A DNA stretch of 64,000 nucleotides, taken from positions 1,003,501-1,067,500 of the forward strand of contig JAUISW010000001.1 of the NCBI GenBank assembly GCA_030434875.1. The letters are read 5' to 3'. Source of the DNA: Lachnospiraceae bacterium C1.1. Its GTDB lineage: Bacteria; Bacillota; Clostridia; Lachnospirales; Lachnospiraceae. The position numbers and the translations under genes are program-made. This document shows, piece after piece, positions 7,131 through 36,196 of the stretch. Each line of letters begins with the position of its first letter. The first letter of the stretch is position 1. The notes under the pieces were generated by a model that worked only from the letters and a program-made list of their open reading frames with translations, was not told the DNA's origin and searched no databases.

Positions 7131-7151
7131 TTTTAAGGAGGAAATTACAAA

Positions 7152-9245
7152 ATGACTAGTGTTCCTGAAATCTTCGGCTCCAAAGTTTTTAACGATGAGG
7201 TTATGAAGAAAAAGCTCCCTAAGGATATTTATAAGGCGCTTATGAAAACTATAGAGGATGGACTTCACCTGCAGCTCGATCTTGCTAATGTGGTTGCAGA
7301 AGCAATGAAGGACTGGGCAACAGAGAATGGAGCTACTCACTTTACTCACTGGTTCCAGCCTATGACAGGAGTTACTGCTGAAAAGCATGACAGCTTCATC
7401 AGCCCAGAGGCAGGCGGCAGAGTGATCATGGAGTTTTCCGGTAAGGAACTCGTAAAGGGTGAGCCTGATGCATCTTCTTTTCCCTCAGGTGGCTTGAGAG
7501 CAACTTTTGAGGCAAGAGGATATACAGCATGGGATCCTACTTCATATGCATTCATCAAGGATGACTGCCTCTGCATTCCTACAGCATTCTGTTCATACAG
7601 CGGAGAGGCACTTGACAAGAAGACACCTCTTTTAAGATCAATGCAGGCTCTTGATAAGGCTGCAATGAGAGTCTTAAAGCTTTTCGGAAATGAAGATGCT
7701 TCAAGAGTTATCACAACAGTTGGTCCTGAGCAGGAATACTTCCTTATCGATATGGAGGTTTATAAAAAGAGACCTGATCTTATCTATACAGGACGTACAC
7801 TTTTCGGTTCACGTCCGCCTAAGGGACAGGAACTTGATGATCATTATTTCGGAAAGATCAAGCCCCGTGTAAAAGAGTTTATGGCTGATCTTGATGAAGA
7901 ACTCTGGAAGCTCGGTATTTATGCAAAGACAGAGCACAATGAAGTTGCACCGGCACAGCATGAGCTTGCACCTGTTTTCTCAACAACAAATATTGCTACA
8001 GATCATAACCAGCTTACAATGGAGCTTATGAAAACTGTAGCACAGAGACATGGTATGGCCTGCCTCCTTCATGAGAAGCCATTTGCAGGAGTTAACGGTT
8101 CAGGTAAGCATAACAACTGGTCAATCTCAACAGATACAGGAATGAACCTTCTTGAGCCCGGTGATACACCTTCCAGAAACGCTCAGTTCCTTCTTTTCTT
8201 AACAGCAGTTATCAAGGCTGTAGATGATTATCAGGGACTTCTCCGTATGTCTGTTGCAACTGCAGGAAATGATCACAGACTTGGAGCTAACGAGGCACCG
8301 CCGGCAATCATGTCAGTATTCCTTGGTGAAGAGCTTGAGGCAGTACTCAGATCCATCGAGGATGGAACAGATTATCACGATAAAAAGAAGAAGCTTATGT
8401 CTATCGGTGCTACAGTTCTTCCTCATATTCCGAAGGATACAACCGACAGAAACAGAACATCACCTTTTGCGTTCACAGGAAATAAGTTCGAGTTCAGAAG
8501 CCTTGGTTCAAATGATTCTATCGCCGGCTGCAATATCGTACTTAACACTATCGTTGCTGAGACACTTAATGAATTTGCTGATAAGCTTGAAGACAGAGAT
8601 AACTTTGATGAAGTTCTTTCAGAACTTATCAAATCCGAGATCGCTGCACACAAGAGAATCCTCTTCAATGGCAACGGATACAGCGATGAGTGGGTTCAGG
8701 AAGCTGAAAAGAGAGGTCTCTTAAATCTTCGTTCAACTCCTGAAGCATTAAAGCAGTTCACCCTTCCGAAGAACATGGAAGTATTCATCAAAAATGGTGT
8801 TTATACAGAAAGTGAGATCCTTGCCCGCAAGGAGATACTCTTTGAGAACTACTACAAGACAATTAATATTGAAGCTCAGACCTTATCAATGATGGCAAGA
8901 AGAAATATCCTTGGTGCTGCTCTTAAATACGAGAAGCAGCTCGCTGATACGATCAATTCCAAGAAAGCAGCCTGCGCAACCGTAAAGTGTGCAGCTGAAG
9001 AGAAACATCTTGGAAGAGTTGCTGATCTTGTAGAGAGCTTACAGGAGAGACTTGAAGTTCTTGAAAAGGATATGGCTAAGGAAGAAAACATGACTGATGT
9101 TGAAGAGCTTGCATTCTATCATCGTGAAACTATCGAGAGTTCAATGCATAGTCTGAGAGAAGTTATAGATGAACTTGAGAGAATCGTTCCTCTTGATTTC
9201 TGGCCTTATCCTACATATGGACAGATGCTTTATTCAGTAAGATAA
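7152..9245 (+). CDS. glnN: glutamine synthetase type III
   Basis: 697 residues, the length class of GSIII rather than GSI (about 450). It starts with the GSIII-specific segment [18 protein letters not shown] and has a glutamate-rich metal site ([10 protein letters not shown]), the [11 protein letters not shown] strand and the nucleotide loop [10 protein letters not shown]. The C-terminal helical region (about 560-697) contains the GSIII-specific extension. It ligates ammonia to glutamate using ATP, forming cytoplasmic dodecamers in known members. AAGGAGG is 10 bases upstream. With asnB before it and gltBD after it, it forms the ammonium-assimilation core. GSIII is common in Bacteroides and rumen Lachnospiraceae. 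Confidence 0.95.
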
Positions 9246-20865: not shown

Positions 20866-21604
20866 TAAAAGTAAAAGTCCGAGAATTCAGGTTTCCCATT
20901 TGAGTAAGAAATTTGGAGAACTTGAAGTCTTAAAAGATATAAGCATGGATATCGAGGAAGGCGAGGTTGTTGTTATTCTCGGACCTTCGGGATCAGGAAA
21001 ATCCACTTTTTTAAGATGCCTTAACAGGCTTGAAACAGCCAGCGGCGGAAGTATTCTTATAAATGGATATGATATTTGCGATAAAAAAATTGATATAAAT
21101 AAGGCTCGTGAAAATATCGGTATGGTATTCCAGCATTTTAATCTCTTTAATAACATGGATGTTATGGGAAATATGATGCTTGCACCTACGGAATTAAAGA
21201 AATTTTCCAAAACTGAAGCGGCAAAAAGAGCTGAAGATCTTTTGACGCGGGTAGGGATGCAGGATAAGATCCATGCTTTTCCTTCCCAGCTTTCCGGGGG
21301 ACAGAAACAACGTGTTGCTATTGCAAGAGCATTGGCGATGAATCCGAATGTAATGCTTTTTGACGAGCCTACATCTGCACTTGATCCTGAAATGGTAGGT
21401 GAAGTTTTAGCTGTAATGAAACAGCTTGCAGGTGAAGGAATGACGATGATCGTAGTCACACACGAGATCGGATTTGCAAGAGAAGTAGCCAATAGAGTTG
21501 TCTTTATGGAGGGTGGATATATTGTCGAAGAAGGCAGCCCTGATGAAGTTATCAATCACCCTAAAGAGGCCAGAACCATTGATTTCTTAAGCAAAGTTCT
21601 TTGA
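20852..21604 (+). CDS. amino-acid ABC transporter ATP-binding protein (GlnQ type)
   Basis: 250 residues. Walker A is GPSGSGKST, the Q-loop is [10 protein letters not shown], the signature is [15 protein letters not shown], Walker B is [13 protein letters not shown] and the H-loop is VVTHE. These are the hallmarks of the polar amino-acid importer ATPase. The GTG start at 20852 has GGAGG about 9 bases upstream inside the permease gene, so translation is coupled. It powers import with the preceding permease and lipoprotein. Confidence 0.92.
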
Positions 21605-21709
21605 TTTTTAACTTATTAGTACCCGATTAAATACAAAATCAGACCTTTATTTATGATAGAATTGTTTTATAAAATGTCAGTGGGGGTCTGACGGATTGGA
21701 GATATCGGT

Positions 21710-22003
21710 ATGAATGATTCGACTCGAAGTGATCTTATAGGCCAGCTTTCAGCTTCTGTTGGATTAGCTGGTAAACTTGACAATGCTGGAACAAAAGTAG
21801 ATGGATCTACAAGAACTATTTACAGTAACGGAAATGTGTTTTATACCTATCAGGAAATTGAAAATGCGCGAAAGGCTATGTTTATGGAACTAAAGAGCGT
21901 TGAGGAAAAATCAACATCCAAGATGTATAAAATCGCTCTTGCTGTAATGGATGACTATCTTAAAAGGGCATCTGAATCTGATAAGATAGTCGGAATGGAA
22001 TAA
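21710..22003 (+). CDS. small hypothetical protein
   Basis: 97 residues, not recognised. The N-terminal half is polar with GKLDNAGTKVDGSTRTIYSNGNVFYT, resembling a short beta-hairpin. The C-terminal half is helical and charged (ENARKAMFMELKSVEEKSTSKMYKIALAVMDDYLKRA). There is no signal peptide or membrane segment. TTGGAG lies 8-9 bases upstream of the ATG, and a clear terminator follows, so it is probably a real monocistronic gene. Function unknown. Confidence 0.6.
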   Translation: MNDSTRSDLIGQLSASVGLAGKLDNAGTKVDGSTRTIYSNGNVFYTYQEIENARKAMFMELKSVEEKSTSKMYKIALAVMDDYLKRASESDKIVGME

Positions 22004-22012
22004 GATGAAAAT

Positions 22013-22054
22013 AAAAACTTCGTCATTGCAGAATTGTCATGACGAAGTTTTTTT
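22013..22054. terminator. bidirectional terminator between the small gene and lacI
   Basis: AAAAACTTCGTCAT pairs with ATGACGAAGTTTTT around a 12-base loop, with Ts on the + strand and As before the stem that give Ts on the - strand. It serves both convergent genes. Confidence 0.85.
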
Positions 22055-22058
22055 CTTT

Positions 22059-23087
22059 TTATTTAGCTTTAGCGCAGCTTTCTCTGATAAACAGTTTTGG
22101 CTCAATTTTTTGCAGCAGAGGTATATTATCTTTAAGGGATGATTTAATAGCAGTGTTTACAAGGGCTTCACCAAATGCTGCATAATCATAACCCACACTG
22201 GTAAGCTGAGGCATGAAAAGAGAACATATATAAGTATTGTCATAACTAACAAGTGAAATATCCTTAGGGATCTTAAGTCCTGCTTCCCTCACAGCCCTGC
22301 TGACTCCGGCAGCAGAAATATCATTAATTGCGATTATCGCAGATGGCAGATTTTTAACTTTCATTAAATCCTTTGCACATCTATAACCCTCATCATAGCT
22401 GTATCCGCCCTGTATAACATAATCCGGATTAAATTCGATATTCTTTTCTTGAAGGATCTCTAAATATTTCTGATATTTTTCGTAAGTTGAGGTTACTTCC
22501 ATATGGCCGCCCACCAGGGCGATTTTTTTATGATCCAGAGAAATTAAGTAGTCAAGTATAAGAGAAACAGCTTTTCTCTCATCAATATTCACGCGTCTGC
22601 AGGAACTTCCGTCAAGTTTTCCTGTCACAACTACAGGAGTTGTCTGGCAGATTTTATTTACAAGCTTTACATAGTCACTATTAGAAACAAGTTCATCTGT
22701 GAAACCTCCAAGCTGGATTATCGCATCAACCTGCTGCTGCCTGAGCTTTTCTAATTGCTCCGTCTGCTGCGATTCGTCTCCGTCAGAATTACACATCATT
22801 ACTGTATAACCGGCTTTTTCCGCAGCTTTTGAACATGACGCCGTTAAAGTCGCATAAAAAGGGTTCTGGATGTCAGCAGCCATTATTCCTATTAATTTTC
22901 TGGACGTATCAGTGAGTCCTTTTGCAAGTGCATTAGGCTTAAAACTGTATTTTTCAATTATAGAATTGACACGATCTTTTTTATCAGCACTGACCTTTGC
23001 TTTTCCGGTCATTACTCTTGAAACAGTGGCGACAGAAACACCTGCTTCGTTCGCTATATCGTATATTGTGATGTTTTTCTCGCGCAT
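22059..23087 (-). CDS. LacI-family transcriptional regulator
   Basis: 342 residues. The N-terminal helix-turn-helix (ITIYDIANEAGVSVATVSRV, about 6-25) and hinge helix are followed by a periplasmic-binding-protein-like sensor domain (about 62-338). It likely represses the divergent glycoside hydrolase gene until a sugar ligand binds. Two copies of the same 14-base palindrome flank the divergent region: one over its own promoter and one just after the hydrolase promoter, so it probably also controls itself. The ligand is likely a galactose- or arabinose-containing product, inferred from the regulated enzyme. An AGGAGG-like site precedes the ATG. Confidence 0.9.
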   Translation of the reverse strand: MREKNITIYDIANEAGVSVATVSRVMTGKAKVSADKKDRVNSIIEKYSFKPNALAKGLTDTSRKLIGIMAADIQNPFYATLTASCSKAAEKAGYTVMMCNSDGDESQQTEQLEKLRQQQVDAIIQLGGFTDELVSNSDYVKLVNKICQTTPVVVTGKLDGSSCRRVNIDERKAVSLILDYLISLDHKKIALVGGHMEVTSTYEKYQKYLEILQEKNIEFNPDYVIQGGYSYDEGYRCAKDLMKVKNLPSAIIAINDISAAGVSRAVREAGLKIPKDISLVSYDNTYICSLFMPQLTSVGYDYAAFGEALVNTAIKSSLKDNIPLLQKIEPKLFIRESCAKAK

Positions 23088-23142
23088 TAATTACCTCCGG
23101 AAAATATTAGAATTATTCGTTTTTAGGAATTCTCATATTACG

Positions 23143-23188
23143 TTGTTCGGCTTATCTGTTTCCAACGAACGGCGCAACAGGCGAAATC
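23143..23188. repeat. short palindromic repeat, inverted partner of 30318-30352
   Basis: A hairpin (CGTTGTTCG with ACGAACGGCG arms) is joined to CGCAACAGGCGAAATC (23173-23188). The last 16 bases recur exactly, in inverse orientation, at 30318-30333 beside a similar hairpin. The pair encloses the large hydrolase gene. Confidence 0.55.
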
Positions 23189-23518: not shown

Positions 23519-26500
23519 ATGAGAAGTTTTTGGAGAAAGAGCGTAACAGCGCTTCTTGCTGCTTCCATGACTGTTTCTACAGTTGTACCGAACGGTATCG
23601 TTACGGCTAATGCAGCAGAGACTGTTGACGCTACAGTCAAGTTGACTCCTGCTTCAGCGTCTGTATTTAATGACACTGATGGAGATGGACTTGGCGAATT
23701 CCAGGGATGGGGAACGTCCCTTTGCTGGTGGGCAAACAGAATCGGTTACAGCGATAAGCTGACCGAAAAGGCAGCCGACGCCTTTTATGGTGATGATGGT
23801 CTTAGAATGAATATCGGCCGTTACAACATTGGAGGCGGCGATAATGTTGGAGAGATCGAAGAGGTTTCAGAGAATGAAAATGCTGACATTTATGATCTTA
23901 GTTCTAATATTCTTCCGACTTTCAGCGGAAGCAGTATGAAAATCTCATCCAGCAGCAGCTATTCATCTGCAACGTATAGCCAGTCTGATGCTGATTTTGG
24001 CATTACAGCCGGAAATACCGTAGGTACGATACAGACGATCGGCTGGATCAATGCGCTAAATGCTGATGCAGGTTCCGGCGGAAATCTTCACTACACTATT
24101 CCTGTTGAAAAAAGTGGAAACTATACCATAAAAATGCTTTTCACCCTTGCAGGCAGCAACAGCAGAGGCGTAAGCATGCAGGTTACAAATGACGGTACGG
24201 ACTCTGAGAATAAAATGGAGACCACAAACACTTATACCGTTGAAGCTGATGATGTAAACAGCGATATTATAGTAAGTTCAGGAAATAATAATATCTATAG
24301 AGTTACTTTCACTGATGTTGAGCTTGCAGAAGGTGATAACAAGATTGATATCGGAGGTGCCGGTTCTGACTGGTGTCTTGACTATATCAAAATGGCAGTT
24401 ATAGAGTCCGGTAAAGAGGGAACTCTTCCGGAGACAAGCGATTTTTATCATGCAAGTCATATCACAAGATCTGATGCTGCAGTTCCGGGTTATGCAACAG
24501 ATGTAACAAAGATAGATCTTGATGAGCATGATGAAGCATATTATGAGGATAATTTTGAAAGAGCTGATTTTGAATGTGGATATGCATGGAATTATGACTG
24601 GGATGCCGACAGCAATCAGTTTAATGTTCTTCTGGCTGCAGCTGAAAAGAGCGGAGAAGATTTCATTGCGGAAGCATTTTCAAATTCACCGCCGTATTTT
24701 ATGACAGAAAGCGGATGCAGCTCGGGAAATATTGATGCAAATGAAGATAATTTAAGAGAGGATTCTTATACAGCATTTGCAACATATCTGGCTGATATTA
24801 TCGCACATTGGAAAAAAGAAGGCATCGTTGATTTTGAAAGCGTAGATGCCATGAATGAGCCCTATACGGATTACTGGGGAGCATATTCGAATAAACAGGA
24901 AGGCTGTCACTTTGATCAGGGAGAATCACAGTCTGACATCATCATTGAACTTAATAAGGCACTTTCAGAAAACGGGATCAACGATATAGTTATCAGTGCA
25001 TCTGATGAAACAAGCATTGATACAGCTATTACTTCCTATGAAGCTTTATCAGATGAAGCAAAGGATATCGTAAACAGAATCGATACTCATACCTACAGCG
25101 GTTCTAAACGTTCAGAACTTTGTGAACTTGCTCAGAACGAAGGCAAAAACCTCTGGATGAGTGAAGTTGACGGAGGCTCAACAGCAGGAACTGATGCAGG
25201 AGAAATGGGTGCAGCTCTTTGGCTTGCAGAGAGAATAAAGACTGATGTGAGTGGTCTTGAATCATCAGCGTGGATTCTCTGGAATGCGATCGATGCCCAT
25301 ATCGATGAGAGCGAAGCTGACTGGAGCAGCGTAGATTATACTGATGAAGATGCTCTTTATGACGATATTCCGCTTACAGAAGGTTATTGGGGAATAGCTC
25401 ATGCAAATCATGACACAGAAGAGCTTCTTCTTACAAAGAAATACTACGCTTATGGACAGTTCTCGAGATATATCCGTCCGGGAATGACAATTATCGCTTC
25501 ATCAGGAGACAGCCTTGCGGCTTACGATCCAGACAGTAAGGAAGTTGTTATTGTTGCGATGAATACGGATGATGAGGATCAGACCTGGAAATTCAATCTT
25601 TCGGATTTCAGCGCTATCGGAGAAGTTACAGAAGCCGTAAGAACCAGCGGAGACCTTGAAAGCGGCGAAAACTGGGCTGATGTAAAGGATTCTGATGATA
25701 TTGAGCTTGATAGCAGCAAGAAGACATTTACAGCTGATATAAAAGCTAACTCTATTACGACTTATGTTGTTGATGGAATTGACTATGACAGCTCTGAGGA
25801 AACTATTGTAAGCGTTGAGGACAGCAATATTTATGCCGTAGAGGGAACTACTGCAGTCCTTCCGGATACAGTGACTGTAATGACCAGCAAAAACAACGAA
25901 AAAGAGGTTGAAGTTGACTGGGATACAGAAGGGGTAGACCTTACAGAGGCCGGAGAGATCACAGGTGATGTTGATGGATATGAGATTACGGCAAATCTCG
26001 TATTTGTAGAGCCTAATATGCAGTATTTCATTGACTGCAACAATTCAGGATCAACTTCATATACCAAGATGGATGAATATGCCGATCTTTTCAATGAAGA
26101 GCCTGACAAGGCCTATGAAGAAGGCAGCTGGGGATATCTTGACAGTTATGGAGAATATAACAGCAGCGATGTTGATGATGCATGGGCTTCAGGCTGGTAT
26201 GCAAAAACAGGACAGGATATTGACTATACAATACCTCTTGAAAAGGGAGATTATAAAGTAAGCTTTGGTTTCAAGGAATGGTGGTGGAAATCCGGACGTT
26301 CTATGAAGGTTTATTCTGTTGATTCAGAAGGAACAGAAAATCTTCTTGGAACAACTTCTACTTACAACGGAAGCAATGGCTGGAATACACCTTCTTATGA
26401 TCTTGAGCTTGATGAAGCTGATGATATGACATTTTCAGTAAGGAAGGCTACAAGTTCTGATCCTGTACTTTCATTCATTAAGGTTCAGCATATACTTGAA

Positions 26501-29500
26501 CTTGATGAACTTAAGTCAGCAATGGTCAGCGCAAATGAGATAGATGCAGATTCTCTTGCAGCTTCAAAGGCTTCAAGATTAAAGAAACTGCTTGCTTCTG
26601 CTCAGTCAGCTATGCTTTCTTCTGCATCAAGTCAGGCTGATATTGATGAAATTAACTCTGAAATTGAGACATTTATCGCTTCTGACGGAGCTGCATACAG
26701 TGAATCTGAAATAGCTGCAAATGATTATCTTCTCTATCTTGTAGACTGTGCAAGTACTGATACAGCAACAGTTCCTGATGACTACAAAATGGGTCTTTAT
26801 CAGTCAGTTACAGACCAGAGATATTCAGAGGATTCAGAGACCGGACTTAAATGGGGTCTTGCAGAGGATGATGAGAATTCAATAGCTATAAAAGGTGGTT
26901 CTTCAGATGGAACTCTTACAGGAACCTATTATTACACAAGCCCTGATATAAGCTATGTTTCCGGTACAAGCGGATTTAACTATTCATTCGAACTTCCGGA
27001 CAGATCAAATGATGATTATCAGGTTACGGTAGGTATCAAGAATCCATGGAGCTCGAGATCGGTAGATATAGAACTTGAGGGCGAGACTGTTGCTGATGGC
27101 ATTACGCTTGGACAGTCAACACTTGTTGAAAATACTTACACGACAGAGGTTACTGACGGTGAACTTAATGTCTTCGTACATAATCCTGACAGAACAAGTC
27201 AGTATGCTGATCCGATAATCAGCTATATCCTTGTAAAGGCAGTTCCCGAGTATACTTTAGACAGCCTTAAGGCATTGCTTGATTCGCAGGCAGCTGATAT
27301 GGAAGGTCATGAATATTCTGAAGACAGTCAGGCAGTTTATGATAAAGCCGCTGCCGCTGCTGAAGCTCTTATTGATGCTTCATCAACAGATGCTTCTGCT
27401 ATTGAGGAAGCTTATGATGATCTTACAGATGCATTTAATGCATTAGTAGAAGTATTTAAGACAAATTACAGCTCGATAACCGGTGTCAGCGGTGACAGGA
27501 TCTACGATACAGACGGATTTAAGATCCAGGCTCACGGCGGACAGATCCAGCAGTTTACAATTAATGGAGAAACAAAGTATTACTGGTATGGTGAAGATAA
27601 GACTTACAGCACAGATCCTGTGACAGGTGTTCATCTTTATACTTCAGAAGACCTTTATAACTGGGATGATGAGGGCGTTGTATTAAAGACAATTCCGGTA
27701 GATGATGATGCTGAAGAATTAAGCGTTGATCTTTCTGTATTTGAGGACAATGAATATTTCAAGGATCTCTATTCTGATTATGAAGGTCTTGAGGCTGATG
27801 ATTCCACCTATGATTCTAAGCTTGAAGAGACCTACTGGAATATTGCAGAAGACCGCTGCATCATGGAGAGACCTAAGGTTCTTTATAACGAAGAGACAGG
27901 CAAGTACGTTATGTGGTGGCACTGCGATGGTAAGACACCTGTTTACACCAGTTCAAATTATGCAAAGGCAAGAGCAGGTGTGGCAATAAGTGATAACCCT
28001 GCAGGTCCGTTCAAATATCTTGGCGCATATAAGCTTGCATACAGTGAAGATGCTGATCATTCCTATGATTCAGATTCAGATGAGCTTGGTGCAGTCAGAG
28101 ATATGAACCTCTTTAAGGATGATGACGGAACAGCTTACATCAGTTATTCATCTGATGGAAACAGCAATACTTATATCGCAAAACTTAATGACAGCTATAC
28201 AGGACTTATTAAAGACAGAGATGAGATGGTTCAGGGCGAGGATTTTGAGATAGCATTTGAAGGATCCTCAAGAGAAGCATCTGCAATGTTTAAGTATAAT
28301 AATAAGTATTACATGATCACTTCAGGATGCACCGGATGGGCAGCAAATGCAGCTTCGTATGCTGTTGCCGATGATCCGCTCGGCCCCTGGACAACAATGG
28401 GTAACCCTTGCACAGATACAGGTTACAGCACTACTTATGATACTCAGAGTACTTGTGTATTCCCTGTTGATGCTGAAGCCGGTAAATTCATCTACATGGG
28501 TGACCGCTGGTTCAATCCGGATGCAGGAAAAGACCTCAGTGATTCAAGATATGTATGGCTTCCTGTAGAATTCTTAAGCGGATCAAAGATCGCTCTTAGA
28601 AGATACAGTGACTGGACCCTTGATGAGCTTGAGGATAAGGGATCATTTGAAGTTAAAACAGAACTTCCGGAAACAGTATCATCGGCAGATGCACTTAAAA
28701 GAAATCTTCCGGATAAAGTAGAAATTGAACTTACCGATGGAAGTAAAAAGACCTATGAAGTTGAATGGGATGGCTTTGATGAGATCGGTGCAATGGGAAC
28801 CTATGAGATAAGCGGAACTTTAAGCAACGGAAGAGAATTTTCACATTCCGTAAATGTCGTTCCCGAGAAGACAATTTATCTCTTTGATCTTGCAGCAGAA
28901 GAGCTTGATTACAATACGGATTATTTAACAGCTGCAAGAAAGTTCCTTAATGGCAGACTTAAGAACACAGTTTCAGATGATCAGAAATATTCGGAAGAAA
29001 ACGGTGCAGGTTATACAGGAGTATTAAAGAGCGAAAACAGTGATGATTATGACCTTGGAACAAAGGATTCCGGTGAGAGCATCTGGGCTCATGGTTTCTG
29101 GGCTGCTTCAAATAAATCTATAGATTATAAATTTGATCTTGAAGCAGGTGATTACACAGTTTACACAGGTTACCAGGAATGGTGGAACACTTCCAGACCT
29201 TCAGTTATTACTGTAACTGCGGAAAATGCAGGTAAGCTTACTTCTTATGAATTTACACTTTCATCCTCGGATGATGCCAGACTTGAGGCAGTATCATTCA
29301 GCCTTGAAAATGCTGACAGTGTAACTGTAAGTGTGGCAAAGACAGGCAGTGCTGACCCTGTAATGAGCTTTATCGGTCTGGTTAATGATTCTATGGTCAT
29401 TCCTGAGACACCTGAAAAAGAGCATGAAGAGGAAACAGTTCCGACTGATCCTGAGAAGGAAACAGATCCGGATAAAGATGATAAGCCGGGCAAAGATACT

Positions 29501-30220
29501 GTATCAGATGATGATTCCAAGAAGGATACTATTTCTGATGGAGATGCTGATAAAGAGCCTGTTTCAGATGATGAAAAAACAGATGATAGCGATAAAAATA
29601 CAACATCTGATAATAGCAGCAATGATCAGACAAAGGATGAAAATGCAGCTGCAATTTCTGCAAACAGTCCTTACGGTGAAAAGATCTATACTGATATTAT
29701 AAATGGTGTTGAAGTATCGATCGGATACTATGATCATGCAGCATATATCGGCAGAAAATATCAGAGCGCTGAGGATCTTGGACTTTCAGTATCGCTTAAC
29801 GGACATCAGGTTCCGACTTCTGCGATCAAAGTTAAGGTCAGTGGAAAGTATGTAGCAGGAAACAGTCTGAAGCTTTCAGTAACCGGGGTCAAGAATCCTG
29901 CATTTGCTCAGATGTGGAAGAAAGTTTCGAAGACTATTAAGTCAAAGAGCTTTGAAATCGAGCAGTATTCAATGACAGTAAACGGAACAGTAACTAAGAA
30001 GAAGGCTGCGGACAAGACAGGACAGGTTATCATAAAGCTTGGTAAAAATAATAAGCTTAAGTTCGCAAAGGCGGTAGTTGTTTATCATAATGCTTCCGGT
30101 AAAGAGAAAAAGGTTCTTGTAAAATTAAAGAAATCAGACATCGAGTCTGTAAAGAGTACGGATGCTGGAACGCTTGTAAGCTTCTGCGGAAACTTTAGTG
30201 GTTCGGTCATTGTCGACTGA
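23519..30220 (+). CDS. secreted GH30 + GH43 bifunctional arabinogalactan-degrading enzyme
   Basis: 2233 residues. A signal peptide (1 to about 33, ending ANAA) precedes a GH30 module resembling endo-beta-1,6-galactanases, starting FQGWGTSLCWWANRIGY. It is split by an inserted carbohydrate-binding-like domain (about 130-300). The catalytic acid/base is E447 (MNEPYTDYW) and the nucleophile E549 (WMSEVDGG). Next come an Ig-like domain (about 764-835), two carbohydrate-binding-like domains each followed by a FIVAR-like helical repeat (to about 1315), and a GH43 module (about 1330-1700). The GH43 pattern IQAHGG...YYWYGEDK fits subfamily 24 exo-beta-1,3-galactanases. Another Ig-like and another binding-like domain, an acidic Ser/Asp linker (about 1957-2045) and a C-terminal domain shared with two neighbours (2049-2233) complete it. 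It probably works at the cell surface on side chains and backbone of type II arabinogalactan. Expression is LacI-controlled. Confidence 0.85.
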   Translation: MRSFWRKSVTALLAASMTVSTVVPNGIVTANAAETVDATVKLTPASASVFNDTDGDGLGEFQGWGTSLCWWANRIGYSDKLTEKAADAFYGDDGLRMNIGRYNIGGGDNVGEIEEVSENENADIYDLSSNILPTFSGSSMKISSSSSYSSATYSQSDADFGITAGNTVGTIQTIGWINALNADAGSGGNLHYTIPVEKSGNYTIKMLFTLAGSNSRGVSMQVTNDGTDSENKMETTNTYTVEADDVNSDIIVSSGNNNIYRVTFTDVELAEGDNKIDIGGAGSDWCLDYIKMAVIESGKEGTLPETSDFYHASHITRSDAAVPGYATDVTKIDLDEHDEAYYEDNFERADFECGYAWNYDWDADSNQFNVLLAAAEKSGEDFIAEAFSNSPPYFMTESGCSSGNIDANEDNLREDSYTAFATYLADIIAHWKKEGIVDFESVDAMNEPYTDYWGAYSNKQEGCHFDQGESQSDIIIELNKALSENGINDIVISASDETSIDTAITSYEALSDEAKDIVNRIDTHTYSGSKRSELCELAQNEGKNLWMSEVDGGSTAGTDAGEMGAALWLAERIKTDVSGLESSAWILWNAIDAHIDESEADWSSVDYTDEDALYDDIPLTEGYWGIAHANHDTEELLLTKKYYAYGQFSRYIRPGMTIIASSGDSLAAYDPDSKEVVIVAMNTDDEDQTWKFNLSDFSAIGEVTEAVRTSGDLESGENWADVKDSDDIELDSSKKTFTADIKANSITTYVVDGIDYDSSEETIVSVEDSNIYAVEGTTAVLPDTVTVMTSKNNEKEVEVDWDTEGVDLTEAGEITGDVDGYEITANLVFVEPNMQYFIDCNNSGSTSYTKMDEYADLFNEEPDKAYEEGSWGYLDSYGEYNSSDVDDAWASGWYAKTGQDIDYTIPLEKGDYKVSFGFKEWWWKSGRSMKVYSVDSEGTENLLGTTSTYNGSNGWNTPSYDLELDEADDMTFSVRKATSSDPVLSFIKVQHILELDELKSAMVSANEIDADSLAASKASRLKKLLASAQSAMLSSASSQADIDEINSEIETFIASDGAAYSESEIAANDYLLYLVDCASTDTATVPDDYKMGLYQSVTDQRYSEDSETGLKWGLAEDDENSIAIKGGSSDGTLTGTYYYTSPDISYVSGTSGFNYSFELPDRSNDDYQVTVGIKNPWSSRSVDIELEGETVADGITLGQSTLVENTYTTEVTDGELNVFVHNPDRTSQYADPIISYILVKAVPEYTLDSLKALLDSQAADMEGHEYSEDSQAVYDKAAAAAEALIDASSTDASAIEEAYDDLTDAFNALVEVFKTNYSSITGVSGDRIYDTDGFKIQAHGGQIQQFTINGETKYYWYGEDKTYSTDPVTGVHLYTSEDLYNWDDEGVVLKTIPVDDDAEELSVDLSVFEDNEYFKDLYSDYEGLEADDSTYDSKLEETYWNIAEDRCIMERPKVLYNEETGKYVMWWHCDGKTPVYTSSNYAKARAGVAISDNPAGPFKYLGAYKLAYSEDADHSYDSDSDELGAVRDMNLFKDDDGTAYISYSSDGNSNTYIAKLNDSYTGLIKDRDEMVQGEDFEIAFEGSSREASAMFKYNNKYYMITSGCTGWAANAASYAVADDPLGPWTTMGNPCTDTGYSTTYDTQSTCVFPVDAEAGKFIYMGDRWFNPDAGKDLSDSRYVWLPVEFLSGSKIALRRYSDWTLDELEDKGSFEVKTELPETVSSADALKRNLPDKVEIELTDGSKKTYEVEWDGFDEIGAMGTYEISGTLSNGREFSHSVNVVPEKTIYLFDLAAEELDYNTDYLTAARKFLNGRLKNTVSDDQKYSEENGAGYTGVLKSENSDDYDLGTKDSGESIWAHGFWAASNKSIDYKFDLEAGDYTVYTGYQEWWNTSRPSVITVTAENAGKLTSYEFTLSSSDDARLEAVSFSLENADSVTVSVAKTGSADPVMSFIGLVNDSMVIPETPEKEHEEETVPTDPEKETDPDKDDKPGKDTVSDDDSKKDTISDGDADKEPVSDDEKTDDSDKNTTSDNSSNDQTKDENAAAISANSPYGEKIYTDIINGVEVSIGYYDHAAYIGRKYQSAEDLGLSVSLNGHQVPTSAIKVKVSGKYVAGNSLKLSVTGVKNPAFAQMWKKVSKTIKSKSFEIEQYSMTVNGTVTKKKAADKTGQVIIKLGKNNKLKFAKAVVVYHNASGKEKKVLVKLKKSDIESVKSTDAGTLVSFCGNFSGSVIVD

Positions 30221-30259
30221 TCTATAAACAAAATTCTATAATAGCGAACCATGACGAGA

Positions 30260-30303
30260 GGTCATCAAATGCCCTGTAATAGGGCATTTGGTGACCTTTT
30301 ACT
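30260..30303 (+). terminator. terminator after the GH30/GH43 gene
   Basis: GGTCATCAAATGCCCT (30260-30275) pairs with AGGGCATTTGGTGACC (30281-30296), then TTTT. The open frame of the next gene runs back into the right arm of this stem. Confidence 0.8.
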
Positions 30304-33300
30304 ATATTTTTATTTATGATTTCGCCTGTTGCGTTGTTCGGAGGCGAACGGCTGAGAAGAGCTTTGTGTTTACGGTTCTTGCAAAAAGCCAGGTTACAGA
30401 TTTGAATGCATATGAGCTCGAAAATGTGGTACTCAATGATGAATTTTTTGAGGCTGCAAGAGAGTCGGACGTAGAATTTTTAAAGAAATTTGATTCAGAC
30501 AGACTTTTATCAAGATTTCGCGAAACTGCCGGTCTTGATACAGACAATAAGGATCCATATAATGGCTGGGAGGACAGCTATATAGGCGGACATACAATGG
30601 GTCATTACCTCACTGCGATCGCACAGGAGGTTGCTGCGAGCGGTGATGATGAATTAAAAGAGAAACTTGAATATATTGTAGATGGATTAAAAGAATGTCA
30701 GGATGCCTTGGGAACAGGCTTTATATTTGGTTCTAAGATTGAAGATTCATCAAATGTTGAGAAACAGTTTGACATTATGGAGGGTAAATCCAGTGGAAGC
30801 AACTGGGTACCCTGGTATACGATGCATAAGATCCTCGCAGGTCTCATAGATGTCTATGAACTTACGGGAAATGAAACAGCACTTGAAGTTGCTGAGGGTC
30901 TCGGAGACTGGACATATGAAAGAACGTCTAAATGGAGCAGTTCAACCCAGGCTAAGGTTTTAAGTGTCGAATATGGCGGAATGAATGACTGCCTTTATGA
31001 ACTTTATAAGATAACTAATGATGAAAAACACCTTGAGGCTGCACATGCTTTTGATGAGACATCTCTTTTTAAGGCAGTTGAATCCGGTGCAAGCAATGTA
31101 CTTAACGGAAAGCATGCCAACTGCACTATTCCGAAATTCTTAGGAGCACTTAACAGATATGAAGCTGTAGGAGATGAAGAGTATCTTGAGTATGCTGAGA
31201 GCTTCTGGGATATGGTAGTAAACAGACATGCATTTATTACCGGCGGACTTAGTGATATGGAGCATTTTAAGACAGATAATTCACTTGATGCCATCCGTAC
31301 CCAGTGCGATTGCGAAAGTTGCTGTGCCTATAATATGTTAAAGCTTTCAAGAAGACTTTACATGATAACCGGTGAAAACAAGTACATGGATTATTATGAG
31401 AATACTTTGAGAAATGCTATTCTCGGTGCAATAAACAGCGAGGACGGAACAACAAGCTATTTTTCACCCATGGCTACAGGATACTATAAATTCTTTGGCG
31501 AGGCTTCACCTGCAAAGAATATGTTCTGGTGCTGTACAGGCTCCGGAATGGAAGATTTTACAAAGCTTACTGACAGCATCTATTTTAATGATGAAAATGA
31601 TATTTATATTGAGCAGTACATTGCATCGGAATTAAAGGATGAAAAGCTGAATACTAAGATAGACCTTGATGGGGATCCGAGAAAGAGCGAAAAATTTACA
31701 GTTAAGATAAATGCTATTGATCCTTCTAAGGCTATATCCATGGAAAGTCTTATCTTAAGGGTTCCGGACTGGGCTGCCGATGATATGACAGTTAAGCTCA
31801 ACGGTAAAAAATTAAGTCTTTCAGCTTCATCAAAATATCTTGTTATTGATAATGACTGGAATGATGGAGATGCTATTAGCTTTGAAATCCCAATGGAGGT
31901 AAGAGCAGTAGGTCTTCCGGATTCTGAAACCGCATTTGGATTCAAGTATGGTCCTACGGTTCTTGCTGCCAAGCTCGGAACAGAGCATATGAGCGAAACA
32001 ACCTGGGCAGGAGTAAATCTTTCAGCTCCGTTATATAAGGTTGTCGGCAATGAAAATGCAAAACTAAATATTACTTATGGTGCAACAACAAAACAGATAC
32101 TTGGTACAGAAACAATAAACATTGAAGATACAACTCTTGATGATTTTATTGAAAATATCAATGATTATCTGGAGAAAGATGAATCTGCGGATGGTCTCAG
32201 ATTCGTATTGAATGGTACAGATGCAGAGGATACTTTTGGAGGTTCACTGGAATTTGTTCCTTATAATGAAATAACCTCAAACAGATACGGTATTTACTGG
32301 TATTTCAGCAGCAGTGCAGAATCTGCAGGAAACAAGATCTTATCCGATAAAGAGGATGGAAGATTTGCGGCAAGTATTTTAGATTCAATCCAGCCCGGAT
32401 ATTCACAATACGAATCTGATGATGTTCATGAAATGGAAGAAAGCTCCAGTGCAGCAGGCAGTCTTGACGGAGTAGGAAGTACAAGATATGCAAAGAGCGG
32501 CGGATATTTTTCCTATGATATGGTAGTTGATAAGGATAAAGAATGCTCACTCCTTGTAAGATATGTGGCAGAAGATTCCGGAAAGACAATAAAGATCACA
32601 GTTGACGGAAAAGAGCTTGCAGCAGAAACTCTTAAATCCGATACAGAAGAAGCATATTTTGACAAATATTATGCTATTCCGGAAGAGATCATTGAGAATG
32701 CTTCAACTAAGACAGTCGCAGGAAAAGAATATTCAGTTGTAAGAGTCAGATTTGAGTCTGGTAATGATGAAGCCAGTGCAAGGCTCGGCGGTGGTCTCTA
32801 CATGACCCGCGCATATGAAACAGATGCTGAAATTACCGGAATCGATGCCGAGGATGCTAAGGTTAAGATCGATGGTAAAAATATTTCGGTAACAGTACCT
32901 GAAAATACTACAAAACTTAAGGCTTCATTTGATATATCAAATGCAAATGGACTTCTCTATCTTGATGACAGACTTGTAAATGACTCCAAAGTTCAAAAGA
33001 TCGCTCTCAATGGAGAAAAGACAGTTACATCTATTAGAGTTTATGCAGAAGACCATAAAACATATGCGGATTATACTATGACAACAGTTTATGGCGATAT
33101 AAATTCTGAAGACCCGGCCGAACCGGAGAAAACTGTCTCTGATGATAAAGAGACAGTTTCTGATGATGAAAAACCTAAGACAGATGATAAAGAATCTGTT
33201 TCTGACGGAGACAGCAAGAAAGATCCTGCAGATGACAAAGAGTCTGTATCTGACAATAAAGATGCAGTTTCAGATGATAAGGCTGTATCTGATAATGAAG

Positions 33301-33932
33301 CAGACCAGGATAATTCGACAGATAAGGGATCAGATGCCGATAAGGCTGTAAGTGCAGATGAAATTGCAAGACAGAAGAATATGCCTTTTGATAAAAAGAT
33401 CGTTGAAAAATCCATTGATGGAGTTTCGGTAAATCTGATCTATTACGGAAAGGTAGCATATATCGGAAAGAACTACCAAAGTGGTGAAGATCTGGACATA
33501 AGCCTTTCTGTAAATGGTGTTTCGATCCCATCCGAAGTCCTTAAATTTAAGATAAAAGGAAAGAAGGGCAGTGGAAATACACTTAAAGTAAATGTAACTG
33601 GTGTAAAAGATCCTGCTTACAAATCTTTGTTCAAAAAGGCAGAGAAGCTGCTTGATTCAGAGACTATGGTCATAGAACAGTATGCAATGACCTTAAACAG
33701 TGTTGTTAGTTCGAAAAAGGCTGCATCTTCAACCGGAGAACTGATCCTTAAAGTTAAAAACGGAAAGGTCAAGAAGGCAAAAGCAGTTGCTGTTTACCAT
33801 AACGCAAAGGGTAAAGAGAAAAAATCATTGATAAAGATCACAAAGAAAGATATTGAAAGCGTTAACAGCACGAACGGCGGTACAACTATTGTTTTCAAAG
33901 GAAATTTTGCTGGATCAGTAACAGTTAAATAA
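30288..33932 (+). CDS. GH127-type beta-L-arabinofuranosidase with surface C-terminal domain; 5' end uncertain
   Basis: Recognisable homology begins near residue 38 (QVTDLNAYELENVVLND), followed by FDSDRLLSRFRETAGL and GWEDSYIGGHTMGHYLTA. This is the (alpha/alpha)6-barrel of the DUF1680/GH127 family, to about residue 640. The active-site cysteine clusters are CDCESCCAYN and FWCCTGSGMED. An extra domain (about 700-850), an acidic VSDD/VSDG-type repeat linker (about 930-1025) and the shared C-terminal domain (1031-1214) follow. Members remove terminal beta-L-arabinofuranose. The longest frame starts at TTG 30288 inside a terminator, runs through a palindromic repeat and shows no signal peptide, although the C-terminal domain occurs otherwise on exported proteins. 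GTG 30366 is an alternative start. The 5' end may have been lost by rearrangement, so the gene could be inactive. Confidence 0.75.
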   Translation: MVTFYYIFIYDFACCVVRRRTAEKSFVFTVLAKSQVTDLNAYELENVVLNDEFFEAARESDVEFLKKFDSDRLLSRFRETAGLDTDNKDPYNGWEDSYIGGHTMGHYLTAIAQEVAASGDDELKEKLEYIVDGLKECQDALGTGFIFGSKIEDSSNVEKQFDIMEGKSSGSNWVPWYTMHKILAGLIDVYELTGNETALEVAEGLGDWTYERTSKWSSSTQAKVLSVEYGGMNDCLYELYKITNDEKHLEAAHAFDETSLFKAVESGASNVLNGKHANCTIPKFLGALNRYEAVGDEEYLEYAESFWDMVVNRHAFITGGLSDMEHFKTDNSLDAIRTQCDCESCCAYNMLKLSRRLYMITGENKYMDYYENTLRNAILGAINSEDGTTSYFSPMATGYYKFFGEASPAKNMFWCCTGSGMEDFTKLTDSIYFNDENDIYIEQYIASELKDEKLNTKIDLDGDPRKSEKFTVKINAIDPSKAISMESLILRVPDWAADDMTVKLNGKKLSLSASSKYLVIDNDWNDGDAISFEIPMEVRAVGLPDSETAFGFKYGPTVLAAKLGTEHMSETTWAGVNLSAPLYKVVGNENAKLNITYGATTKQILGTETINIEDTTLDDFIENINDYLEKDESADGLRFVLNGTDAEDTFGGSLEFVPYNEITSNRYGIYWYFSSSAESAGNKILSDKEDGRFAASILDSIQPGYSQYESDDVHEMEESSSAAGSLDGVGSTRYAKSGGYFSYDMVVDKDKECSLLVRYVAEDSGKTIKITVDGKELAAETLKSDTEEAYFDKYYAIPEEIIENASTKTVAGKEYSVVRVRFESGNDEASARLGGGLYMTRAYETDAEITGIDAEDAKVKIDGKNISVTVPENTTKLKASFDISNANGLLYLDDRLVNDSKVQKIALNGEKTVTSIRVYAEDHKTYADYTMTTVYGDINSEDPAEPEKTVSDDKETVSDDEKPKTDDKESVSDGDSKKDPADDKESVSDNKDAVSDDKAVSDNEADQDNSTDKGSDADKAVSADEIARQKNMPFDKKIVEKSIDGVSVNLIYYGKVAYIGKNYQSGEDLDISLSVNGVSIPSEVLKFKIKGKKGSGNTLKVNVTGVKDPAYKSLFKKAEKLLDSETMVIEQYAMTLNSVVSSKKAASSTGELILKVKNGKVKKAKAVAVYHNAKGKEKKSLIKITKKDIESVNSTNGGTTIVFKGNFAGSVTVK
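30318..30352. repeat. short palindromic repeat, inverted partner of 23143-23188
   Basis: GATTTCGCCTGTTGCG followed by the hairpin TTGTTCG-GAGG-CGAACGG. It lies between the terminator and the recognisable start of the GH127 protein, where a signal peptide would be expected. Confidence 0.55.
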
Positions 33933-33952
33933 AAAAGCAATAGCATAATAAT

Positions 33953-33997
33953 AAAAAACACAGTTAATCTTTTTAATTCAGATTAACTGTGTTTTTC
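33953..33997. terminator. bidirectional terminator between GH127 and subtilisin genes
   Basis: AAAAACACAGTTAATC pairs with GATTAACTGTGTTTTT around an 11-base loop. A-runs and T-runs on both sides allow termination of both convergent transcripts. Confidence 0.85.
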
Positions 33998-34003
33998 TTT
34001 GTC

Positions 34004-36196
34004 TTAGATTGAATTTGCGCTGCAGCTTCCGTTAAAATTGCCTGTCAGAGTAATTGTTTTACTGTCTGAGTCATATTGTATATTGCTCTTAGGTACTTTA
34101 ACAAGACCTTTTTTCTCCTTGCCAGAGGCTGTGTGGTATATAACTATTGCCTTTGCAGTTTTTACAGATGACTTATCTTTATTCATTTTTACAAAGAGCT
34201 GTCCCGTAGTCGTTCCGCTGCTCTTTGAGTTTACAGCTGTGCCGCTTACGGTCATTGGATACTGAGTTACTGAGAAAGTCTGGCTTTTTAATGTAGATTT
34301 AAGCTGCTTCCAAATAGATTTATAGCTTGATCCTGCTATTTTCTTTATCGAGACTGTAAGACTGCTGCCTGCCGCTTTTGTGCCCTTTACCTTTATCCTT
34401 AGTGCAGATGTCGGGATTTCAACTCCATCAACAGAAACACTGATTCCAAGATCCTTTGCACTTTTATAGAATTTGCCAAGATAAGGTGCATTCTCATAAT
34501 ATGCGATACAATAGGAAACCGAGCCTGCATTTCCGCTTACGGAATTTGCTCCATAGGGTGAATTTGATGATATTGCCTTTTTAACAGATTCCTCTGAATC
34601 GCTGTCTGAACCTGAATTGTTGTCAGCATCAGAACTATTATTGTTGTCGGATGAAGAGTCGTTGTCTGATTTTGAGTTATTATCAGATGTAGAATTATTA
34701 TTGGAGTCCGATGATGAATCATTATCAGATGTTGTATTTGATCCTGAATTATTATCAGATGTTGTATTTGATTCGGAATCATTATCCGATTCAGAATCTG
34801 AACTACTGTCTGAGTCAGTATATATTGCAGACGCAACGTCGACGCATCCGGTTATTGAACGGGACGAATAGCTATAAGTTACTCCGTCACTTGTATCAAG
34901 AATTCTATTTATTACAGTATCAGCCCTTGTTGAGCTGTTGTCATTCAATAGGCTTGTTTTTGAAGAAAGAACAAGTGCAGCAACACCGGCTACAACAGGG
35001 GAAGCCATAGAAGTTCCATTCATACTGCCATAAGCAGATGTTGAACTAGCATAAGTAGAGTAAATATTACTGCCGGGGGCGGCTATATCAACACTGTCCC
35101 CATAGTTTGAACTGGAGGACAGCTTGTTGCTGGATGTAATATTTGCAACTGATATTACATGGTCACATGCAGCCGGATAAAATTTGGTATTCTTTCCGCT
35201 GTTTCCGGCAGAACTAACCATAACAATACCTTTAGCATAGGCAGTATTAACAGCTGTTTGTACTGAAGAAATAAATGTATTGTCTGTAGTGTCTGTAGCA
35301 ACACTCATATTTATTACATCAGCACCATTGCTTATAGCATAATCAATTCCGGTAAATAATGAGCTGGAATAAATGTTTCCACTGGAATCCGCAAGCTTTA
35401 TGAGCATCAGATCTGCTTTCGGAGCAACACCGCATCCGCCTTTATTATTTAAGGATGCTGCGACAATCCCTGCAACGTGTGTTCCGTGGTTTTTTTCACT
35501 GCTGCTGTTTAACGGGGAAACATCTGTAGTTAGATCATAGGCATTATAGGTATCAACTATATTATTAGTCAGATCTTCATGTGTAGTGAGAAAACCATTA
35601 TCCAATATCGCAACTTTAACGCCTTCGCCGTAAATATTGTTATCCCAGGCTGTGGAACTTGATATTTTTTCATGATGCCATTGAGTAGAGGCATCGGAAT
35701 AGTCAGACTCAGTTTCAAGGTCTGTGTCGGTAAGTTCGAGGATAATATTTGCCTGAAGGGGAGCCTTAAAATTTCCTGACTGCGATGCTTCAGATATTAC
35801 TTTATCGATACTTTCATCAAAGTCAACGACGGCAATACCACGTTCGAAAGATTTGAGTTCTCCGCCATAGGATTCTGCAATCTCAGAGGCATCGGAATCA
35901 TTTTCTGCTGTAAAGTATGCCTGTTTTTCGGCATAATCTACTCCTTCTTTATGTTCATCAAGGTATTCCTTCTGATCTTCAAGTATTTCCTTTACCTCTT
36001 CATGGCTGTACTCCGTTTGGAAAATATTGCTTTTTTCGGATTCTGAGCTATATTCATGAACTTCAGATTCATCAATTGTGGATATATCGTTTGCTTCTGA
36101 TGCATAGGTCAGAACAGATACTGATAAGATTGAAAAAGCAGTTATCACAGAAATCTTTTTGCTTATGTCTATAAAAAATCGGCTTCTAAATTTCAT
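34004..36196 (-). CDS. secreted subtilisin-like serine protease (S8) with surface C-terminal domain
   Basis: 730 residues. It has a signal peptide (about 1-33, with basic start KFRSRFFIDISKK and a hydrophobic core), an acidic propeptide (to about 165) and the S8 catalytic domain (about 185-460). The triad is D199 (AILDNG), H237 (NHGTHVAG) and S396 (GTSMASP), with N332 as oxyanion-hole Asn (SSAGNSG). A long Ser/Asp/Asn repeat linker (about 463-538) leads to the C-terminal domain (545-730) shared with the GH30/GH43 and GH127 proteins. There is no LPXTG motif. It may mature or turn over the neighbouring surface enzymes, or digest plant glycoproteins. GGAGG precedes the ATG on the - strand. Confidence 0.92.
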   Translation of the reverse strand: MKFRSRFFIDISKKISVITAFSILSVSVLTYASEANDISTIDESEVHEYSSESEKSNIFQTEYSHEEVKEILEDQKEYLDEHKEGVDYAEKQAYFTAENDSDASEIAESYGGELKSFERGIAVVDFDESIDKVISEASQSGNFKAPLQANIILELTDTDLETESDYSDASTQWHHEKISSSTAWDNNIYGEGVKVAILDNGFLTTHEDLTNNIVDTYNAYDLTTDVSPLNSSSEKNHGTHVAGIVAASLNNKGGCGVAPKADLMLIKLADSSGNIYSSSLFTGIDYAISNGADVINMSVATDTTDNTFISSVQTAVNTAYAKGIVMVSSAGNSGKNTKFYPAACDHVISVANITSSNKLSSSSNYGDSVDIAAPGSNIYSTYASSTSAYGSMNGTSMASPVVAGVAALVLSSKTSLLNDNSSTRADTVINRILDTSDGVTYSYSSRSITGCVDVASAIYTDSDSSSDSESDNDSESNTTSDNNSGSNTTSDNDSSSDSNNNSTSDNNSKSDNDSSSDNNNSSDADNNSGSDSDSEESVKKAISSNSPYGANSVSGNAGSVSYCIAYYENAPYLGKFYKSAKDLGISVSVDGVEIPTSALRIKVKGTKAAGSSLTVSIKKIAGSSYKSIWKQLKSTLKSQTFSVTQYPMTVSGTAVNSKSSGTTTGQLFVKMNKDKSSVKTAKAIVIYHTASGKEKKGLVKVPKSNIQYDSDSKTITLTGNFNGSCSANSI

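Follow-up and report, generated by a model that had tools for sequence, protein, structure and literature searches.

In the rumen-type gut bacterium Lachnospiraceae bacterium C1.1, three neighboring genes encode enzymes that end in the same domain of about 185 residues, which is probably a non-covalent, cationic module for retention at the cell surface. The genes lie in a stretch of 64,000 nucleotides (the window, with positions counted from its first letter). The three copies of the domain can be aligned over their full length with pairwise identities of 53%, 44% and 39%, and with the domain of the GH127 protein as a single query, the other two copies were recovered from the host genome with E=5.8e-56 and E=5.4e-36. 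At the level of sequence, the similarity of the three copies is far beyond chance. The preliminary description, which had proposed this shared domain together with its frames, its boundaries and an acidic linker in front of each copy, is thus borne out on all these points.

The three carriers in the window

The first carrier is a galactanase of 2233 amino acids with a signal-like N-terminus (23519..30220, forward strand), recognized as an open frame and by matches to PDB sequences. These matches indicate two catalytic parts, one of the endo-beta-1,6-galactanase type (E=2.9e-44 with a solved endo-beta-1,6-galactanase) and one of the exo-beta-1,3-galactanase type (best E=2.3e-57 with a set of GH43-type exo-beta-1,3-galactanases), which presumably correspond to the families GH30 and GH43. 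An acidic linker (29396..29662, forward strand; start set by eye) with a net charge of -21 over 89 residues is followed by copy 1 of the domain, which comprises 185 amino acids (residues 2049-2233; 29663..30217, forward strand) and has a net charge of +15 and a pI of 9.7, compared to a pI of 4.1 for the remainder of the protein. The second carrier is a GH127 beta-L-arabinofuranosidase (PF07944, E=6.6e-95) of 1214 amino acids (30288..33932, forward strand), the 5' end of which is truncated in the assembly. Its linker of VSDD/VSDN repeats (33102..33377, forward strand; start set by eye) carries -18 over 92 residues, and copy 2 with its 184 amino acids (residues 1031-1214; 33378..33929, forward strand) has a net charge of +17 and a pI of 9.8, the remainder having a pI of 4.4. 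The third carrier, an S8 subtilase (PF00082, E=6.1e-50) of 730 amino acids with a signal-like N-terminus, is encoded on the reverse strand (34004..36196). A Ser/Asp/Asn-rich linker (34565..34816, reverse strand; -18 over 84 residues; start set by eye) leads to copy 3 with 186 amino acids (residues 545-730; 34007..34564, reverse strand), a net charge of +17 and a pI of 9.9, whereas the remainder has a pI of 4.2.

The enzyme names given in the preliminary description are supported by Pfam for the GH127 and S8 proteins. For the galactanase, the designation GH30/GH43 rests on the PDB sequence matches, since Pfam revealed Big_4, the GH30 beta-sandwich below the cut-off and no match to GH43. Similarly, the designation as secreted enzymes holds for the galactanase and the subtilase but not for the GH127 copy, which lacks the signal peptide in comparison with the near-identical locus L016. 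About 1.2 kb of L016 are absent from the window at around position 30340: the upstream match in blastn stops at window position 30343 (L016 position 374) and the downstream match begins at 30339 (L016 position 1604), which places the junction at 30339..30343 (no strand assigned). The missing part comprises the upstream region of the GH127 gene and the first approximately 325 residues, including the signal peptide. Related GH127 proteins have 1523 and 1530 amino acids, the longer one with a signal peptide. The loss is either a real deletion or an assembly error, and without a signal peptide the copy in the window may not be exported. The named relatives L015-L017 come from metagenome-assembled genomes of Lachnospiraceae, two of which have 'Rumen' in the isolate name.

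Position, charge and distribution of the family

The motifs listed in the preliminary description are all found among the 53 columns that are invariant in the three copies of the window, but they characterize a subfamily and not the family as a whole. When 27 diverse copies are compared, G30, G175 and G179 (counted along the GH127 copy) are the only invariant residues, with K58 and K93 almost invariant, and the median pairwise identity among 63 aligned copies is 27%. What is conserved is the place of the domain within the protein. A stop follows within 18 residues of the domain end in 73 of the 76 copies with a visible stop; the remaining three are partial alignments with tails that by eye resemble the end of the domain, and no clearly internal copy was found among the 76. 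None of 66 proteins carries two copies. Both sets were picked by rank or by hand and not at random. Besides some fragments, they contain close orthologs from the same species (G023), and the loci L054 and L210 may represent a single gene that was counted twice.

An acidic linker precedes the domain in 48 of the 57 copies of the 66-copy subset with enough upstream sequence. The domain itself is uniformly basic, with a pI of 8.8-10.2 (median 9.9) and a net charge of +3 to +26 (median +16.5) in the 66 copies, compared to a median pI of 4.4 (range 4.1-9.2) for the remainder of 53 carriers. In a control, the last 170 residues of 15 signal-like frames had a median pI of 5.0 (range 4.1-9.8); four of them reached a pI of at least 8, and the two above 9 (L139 and L140) are themselves weak matches to the profile. 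In the alignment of 63 copies, 16 columns are at least 60% basic and three are acidic to this degree, and three columns are 92% basic, with lysine as the most common residue.

By a crude rule of our own, 40 of 50 carriers have a signal-like N-terminus. Among the ten that fail, L077 and L079 show a clear hydrophobic N-terminus by eye, one is the truncated GH127 protein and the rest are fragments or unclear. None of the 50 is clearly cytoplasmic, although some of these ten are ambiguous. The preliminary description had also noted the lack of an LPXTG motif, and indeed [LN]PxT[GAS] does not occur in the last 60 residues of any of the 66 copies. Since no hydrophobic 18-mer of the membrane type is present within the domain in these copies either, they do not show the features of sortase substrates, namely an LPXTG-like motif with a C-terminal hydrophobic stretch.

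The host genome contains 18 matches at E≤1e-12. Within its genus, matches occur in 23 of 48 genomes and number 215 in total, counted as aligned pieces, so that split copies may have been counted separately. The profile (A4) was trained on 27 copies, of which 15 come from the host genome. In the genomes searched beyond the genus, all matches were weak and partial. The check suggested in the preliminary description, whether the domain always ends secreted proteins in Lachnospiraceae, comes out in its favor with regard to position and the mostly signal-like N-termini, but across the genomes searched the domain occurs in a single genus and is not general in Lachnospiraceae. Protein-database searches returned few relatives (two, one of them the window's own protein; three; and one), and tblastn with two copies of the domain gave no match in plasmids, among them NC_014824.1 of R. 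albus. In viral scans one phage contig with the domain was found among the matches listed, and the encoded protein has the same C-terminal arrangement.

As expected from the preliminary description, the domain did not fall into a named family: no convincing Pfam or NCBIfam match was obtained for the proteins of the window and for the 27 members (for Pfam, among the 25 of 58 families listed). The only curated match is the CS domain (PF04969), which the GH127 copy alone reaches with 21.3 bits over 53 residues, exactly at the cut-off; the full-length GH127 protein scores 18.8 bits, below the cut-off, and only two of the 27 members match at E≤1. Among the Pfam matches of the three window proteins at E≤1 there was neither an SLH family nor a choline-binding one (including PF01473 and PF19127). 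The SLAP domain (PF03217) was likewise absent from these proteins at E≤1 and, for the 27 members, from the 25 of 58 families listed. AlphaFold2 yielded a confident model for copy 3 (pLDDT 93.6, pTM 0.84), which is beta-rich and has two halves that differ in predicted secondary structure; Foldseek found no significant match for it. No published description of the domain was found in a literature search outside which most subscription papers lay. As far as the searches reach, the family is large, and no Pfam or NCBIfam model describes it convincingly.

Proposed surface retention and competing explanations

According to the proposed mechanism, the signal peptide would direct the carrier to export, the flexible, acidic and hydroxyl-rich linker would keep the catalytic part at a distance from the C-terminal module, and this module, folded and rich in lysine, would bind an anionic constituent of the envelope of the same cell, so that the protein is kept there. 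With the three carriers of the window, the cell would then display a galactanase, an arabinofuranosidase and a protease. Going by the enzyme families, this combination might suit hydroxyproline-rich glycoproteins of the plant wall. Surface location, non-covalent binding and an anionic ligand are what we infer; the support for retention comes from homology, strict C-terminal position, the basic character with conserved lysine positions, the predicted fold, the diversity of partners and a module swap on a GH3 enzyme. This secreted GH3 enzyme carries the C-terminal domain in the host (G000) and Choline_bind_3 repeats in G029, with 41% identity over the longest aligned block. A homolog from G026 gives a similar alignment and likewise matches Choline_bind_3 in its terminal part. 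The swap is known from this one enzyme family. The two modules are not simple alternatives, since both G026 and G029 use both of them, and we therefore rejected the idea that they exclude each other.

The domain is also optional on subtilases, which occur with and without it. Among 30 subtilase loci the full domain is present in three (twice in the host's own species and once in G039) and a weak partial match in one (G035); six loci end open with the C-terminus outside the sequence, and several other subtilases end in a different type of sequence that is not a known anchor. By coordinates, a domain match also follows further subtilases in G001, G005, G026, G029 and G039.

A polymer made by TagF is unlikely to be the universal ligand, since eight domain-bearing genomes have no PF04464 match. 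These are G041, which is 98% complete and has 19 domain matches, and G010, G011, G014, G018, G020, G036 and G047 with at least two domain matches each. In the host, one PF04464 match is above the cut-off, covering only 143-362 of 367 positions. Seven sortase-family matches in the host genome indicate that other anchoring routes exist.

Further points against retention are that the strict C-terminal position exceeds what binding alone needs and that a basic domain could bind anionic pectin instead. A rather unlikely explanation is that the domain recognizes anionic polymers of plants or of the host (pectin, uronic-acid polysaccharides, mucin) and would direct the enzymes to the food and not to the cell. 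Several carriers do act on pectin or the plant wall (pectinesterases, the galactanase, GH127), and for CBM37 of R. albus attachment to polysaccharides as well as to the cell surface has been described (PMC4081043). The range of carriers speaks against this. Next to glycosidases and plant-wall enzymes (GH30/43-type, GH127, GH3, GH32, pectinesterase), it comprises S8 proteases, papain plus lectin-like, transglutaminase-like and lysozyme-like proteins, LRR proteins, Cthe_2159 and one phage-encoded protein; the subtilases, the papain-type protease and the transglutaminase-like, lysozyme-like and LRR carriers have no common substrate. Moreover, carbohydrate-binding modules usually occur multiply or internally, unlike this domain with no protein with two copies among 66 and no clearly internal copy.

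A C-terminal sorting or export signal, cleaved or not, that is read by dedicated machinery in a role like that of the type IX secretion CTD would also account for the strict position, which was seen in 76 copies on diverse proteins. Across the genomes searched, the domain is limited to a single genus, as one would expect if a lineage-specific machinery is needed. We nevertheless regard this as quite unlikely, because neither the window proteins nor the 27 members (Pfam: 25 of 58 families listed) gave a Pfam or NCBIfam sorting match. In particular, the type IX sorting-domain model was absent at E≤1 from the three window proteins (Pfam, NCBIfam) and, for the 27 members, from all 16 families in one search and from the 25 of 58 families listed in the other. 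Furthermore, an N-terminal signal peptide should be enough for export in a single-membrane cell. A more specific version, a recognition tag of a genus-specific sorting system in single-membrane gut bacteria with the final strand read by a dedicated receptor or enzyme, seems very unlikely to us; if true, about 20 different exoenzymes and adhesins per cell would be delivered to the surface by a tag that plays the part of the type IX secretion CTD. By sequence, a sorting signal is indistinguishable from a binding module. A ligand-free Ig-like cap or folding aid is most improbable, given the conserved lysine columns, the uniformly high charge and the exchange with a known binding module; a spacer should also sit internally, and none was seen to do so. 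The earlier proposal of a surface-attachment or sorting module is partly supported, through the indirect evidence of C-terminal position, signal-like N-termini, unrelated passengers, the swap and the lack of a convincing named family, but not as a feature of Lachnospiraceae in general. What the preliminary description had named as counterevidence, a match to a known family with another function or wide occurrence in cytoplasmic proteins, did not turn up among the curated matches and the carriers, apart from the CS match at its cut-off and the ambiguous frames mentioned above.

Known systems and significance

Among the closest known systems are the Ig-like domains of surface proteins (chitinase Ig-like, Sap S-layer, Rib) and the Lactobacillus SlpA/SLAP domain (PF03217). 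The latter is described as a basic C-terminal module that binds anionic teichoic acid and thereby fixes S-layer proteins non-covalently to the wall, with two homologous SlpA motifs and YxY....KxxN phosphate sites (PMC11181022). Our domain shares with it the strongly basic character and the C-terminal location on secreted proteins but differs in the lack of a Pfam SLAP match in the window proteins, in the different predicted secondary structure of its halves and in its lineage. The best reading by analogy is that it might work like the teichoic-acid-binding domain, without belonging to that family, or like CBM37. CBM37 of Ruminococcus albus is reported as a lineage-restricted module with dozens of copies that attaches enzymes to the cell and occurs on many extracellular proteins, carbohydrate-active as well as non-catalytic, in tandem and between modules (GH11-CBM22-CBM37-CE1) (PMC4081043). 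Compared by description and not by sequence, both are lineage-restricted with many copies on varied extracellular proteins; unlike CBM37, our domain is single and last and is also found on proteases and LRR proteins. In B. proteoclasticus, nine large cell-associated proteins end in PF01473 repeats that are believed to be anchors, and an amylase of B. fibrisolvens 16/4 has a partly conserved LPXTG (PMC2914790). Like such choline-binding repeats (PF01473, PF19127), the domain is C-terminal on the same type of secreted GH3 enzyme in related species. In contrast to these short aromatic repeats it is globular, and the host has no Choline_bind_3 match at E≤0.001.

The surface retention of hydrolases, proteases and LRR adhesins in rumen and gut Lachnospiraceae is only partly known. 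The exchange with choline-binding repeats on the GH3 enzyme makes the idea of surface retention directly testable. The domain would allow the annotation of many secreted proteins now called hypothetical and would offer a natural tag for surface display. Moreover, a module at the end of about 18 proteins in one genome would label a substantial share of the surface proteins of these species.

The domain and its copies in the host genome

The double galactanase-type protein (23519-30220, + strand; GH30/GH43 in the preliminary description), the GH127 protein (30288-33932, +) and the S8 protease (34004-36196, -) are open frames that each carry the domain at the C-terminus. The preliminary description was right in claiming a single domain common to these three enzymes, and its boundaries stand. 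The aligned window copies have 53 invariant columns and pairwise identities of 53%, 44% and 39%. Using the GH127 copy as single query, we obtained nine matches in the 4.23-Mb host genome (the window being C1:1003501-1067500), query included, and six of them are nearly full length (E 1.9e-110 to 1.2e-24). Profiles were built from ten host-genome copies (A2) and from 27 copies of several species (A4). A4 gave 26 host matches at E≤1 and 18 at E≤1e-12, 15 of the latter being part of its training set.

The segment 23519-36196 encodes endo-1,6- and exo-1,3-galactanase parts next to a GH127 beta-L-arabinofuranosidase and a subtilase. This combination would suit degradation of hydroxyproline-rich plant wall glycoproteins and could be directed against arabinogalactan proteins and extensins. 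About 1.2 kb of the near-identical locus L016 is missing at 30339-30343, which removes the upstream region of GH127, its start and the first ~325 residues with the signal peptide; longer relatives exist. This gap may be either a real deletion or an assembly error. Elsewhere in the window, two DDE transposase genes (58352-59683, -; 62228-63559, +; Pfam) of equal length, equal Pfam score and opposite orientation stand on either side of a PAS-GGDEF gene (60080-61645).

Position, charge and carriers of the domain

The C-terminal position of the domain is unusually strict. Its end lies 0-18 residues ahead of the stop in 73 of the 76 copies with a visible stop (78 distinct copies in the loci examined); each of the remaining three is a partial alignment with a leftover tail that resembles the domain's end. 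An earlier subset of 66 copies contains no protein with two copies of the domain, no LPXTG and no membrane-type stretch; in the same subset, an acidic linker occurs within 60 residues before the domain in 48 of the 57 copies with enough upstream sequence. A crude signal-peptide rule is satisfied by 40 of the 50 carrier frames closed at both ends.

The domain is basic, with a pI of 8.8-10.2 (median 9.9) and a net charge of +3 to +26 (median +16.5), and in 53 carriers the remainder has a median pI of 4.4 (4.1-9.2). As a control, 15 signal-like host frames in which no domain was called were measured over their last 170 residues, which gave a median pI of 5.0 (4.1-9.8); both controls above pI 9 (L139 and L140) are themselves weak matches of the A4 search in the host. 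Among the columns of a 63-copy alignment, 16 are basic in at least 60% of copies and three are acidic to that extent. Lysine occurs 1745 times and arginine 184 times, and in three columns the basic share is 92%, lysine being the commonest residue. Since the basic columns are preserved at a median pairwise identity of 27%, the charge is maintained, as are some of the lysine positions, with most of the sequence drifting.

The enzymes carrying the domain in the host and its relatives include pectinesterases, GH3, GH32, GH127, the double galactanase and subtilases. Further carriers include a papain-type protease that also has a lectin-like domain, a transglutaminase-like protein, a hydrolase resembling phage lysozyme, a carbohydrate-binding protein of the Cthe_2159 type and several LRR proteins, and small secreted proteins (224 and 298 aa) consist of scarcely more than signal peptide and domain. 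A tail common to such unrelated functions resembles a location tag.

Probable surface retention, possible sorting

On one enzyme type, GH3, the C-terminal module is exchanged between related species. The secreted GH3 enzymes L067 of the host (1195 aa) and L194 of the congeneric genome G029 (1328 aa) share 41% identity over the longest aligned block, but L067 ends in the domain and L194 in Choline_bind_3 repeats. The homologue from G026, another genome of the genus (L196, 1326 aa), aligns like L194 and also has Choline_bind_3 matches at its C-terminus. Both modules are present in G026 and G029, and no Choline_bind_3 was found in the host genome at E≤0.001. L067 and L194 also have the same permuted order of GH3_C, Fn3-like and GH3_N. 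According to Kelly et al. (PMC2914790), nine large cell-associated proteins of B. proteoclasticus end in PF01473 repeats, which are believed to be anchors, and LPXTG is partly conserved in a B. fibrisolvens amylase. Among four close host subtilases, the domain is present on two; the other two lack a match to it close to their end. By eye, several other subtilases of the genus (loci L161-L187) have a different ending that recurs among them (..GSYTVTYTLADGSGKKFKVKIRVS.. and similar sequences) and may be a second C-terminal module.

A non-covalent surface-retention module is the best supported reading of the domain. Its lysine-rich surface would bind a putative anionic envelope polymer and thereby retain the carrier, similar to the non-covalent binding of such a polymer by a Lactobacillus teichoic-acid-binding domain (PMC11181022). 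Less probably, the domain is a C-terminal sorting signal, with which its strict position would agree. The surface-attachment or sorting role proposed in the preliminary description is likely, given the C-terminal position, basic charge, unrelated passengers and module exchange, though unproven.

As to the ligand, a TagF-like polymerase (PF04464, E≤1e-5) is absent from G041, a 98% complete genome of the genus with 19 domain matches, as well as from seven further genomes that have at least two. A TagF-made polymer is therefore ruled out as general ligand, unless the profile misses TagF.

Distribution and a phage-borne copy

Within the genus, profile search gave domain matches at E≤0.001 in 23 of 48 genomes (14 of the 22 of high quality), 215 in sum and at most 24 per genome. 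The named relatives are assemblies of Lachnospiraceae, and the isolate name of at least one points to rumen. Wider searches, in which first-look candidates were scored in part for some genomes and most genera were represented by one genome, so that diverged or unsampled copies could escape, matched 2 of 298 genomes of the family, 5 of 196 of the order (E≤0.01) and 2 of 398 of the phylum, each time including the host. Beyond the host, there was a single partial match in the family (E=1.5e-5), four of ~48 residues in the order, and in the phylum a partial one within a frame of 104 residues that has a stop.

Among the matches listed from viral-contig scans, only PV036455.1, a Lachnospiraceae phage from human feces, has the domain. 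It lies at the end (73.5 bits) of a 598-residue BspA-type LRR protein with a signal-like N-terminus (21389-23185, corresponding to 6663-8456 of locus L213), whose last 150 residues have a pI of 9.75 and whose acidic body has one of 4.5. This protein is a candidate lysogenic-conversion surface protein. Since the host of PV036455.1 is placed only to Lachnospiraceae, the restriction to the genus may not be strict. Overall, the domain is an uncatalogued, genus-level family, and the kind of module that it represents is already known.
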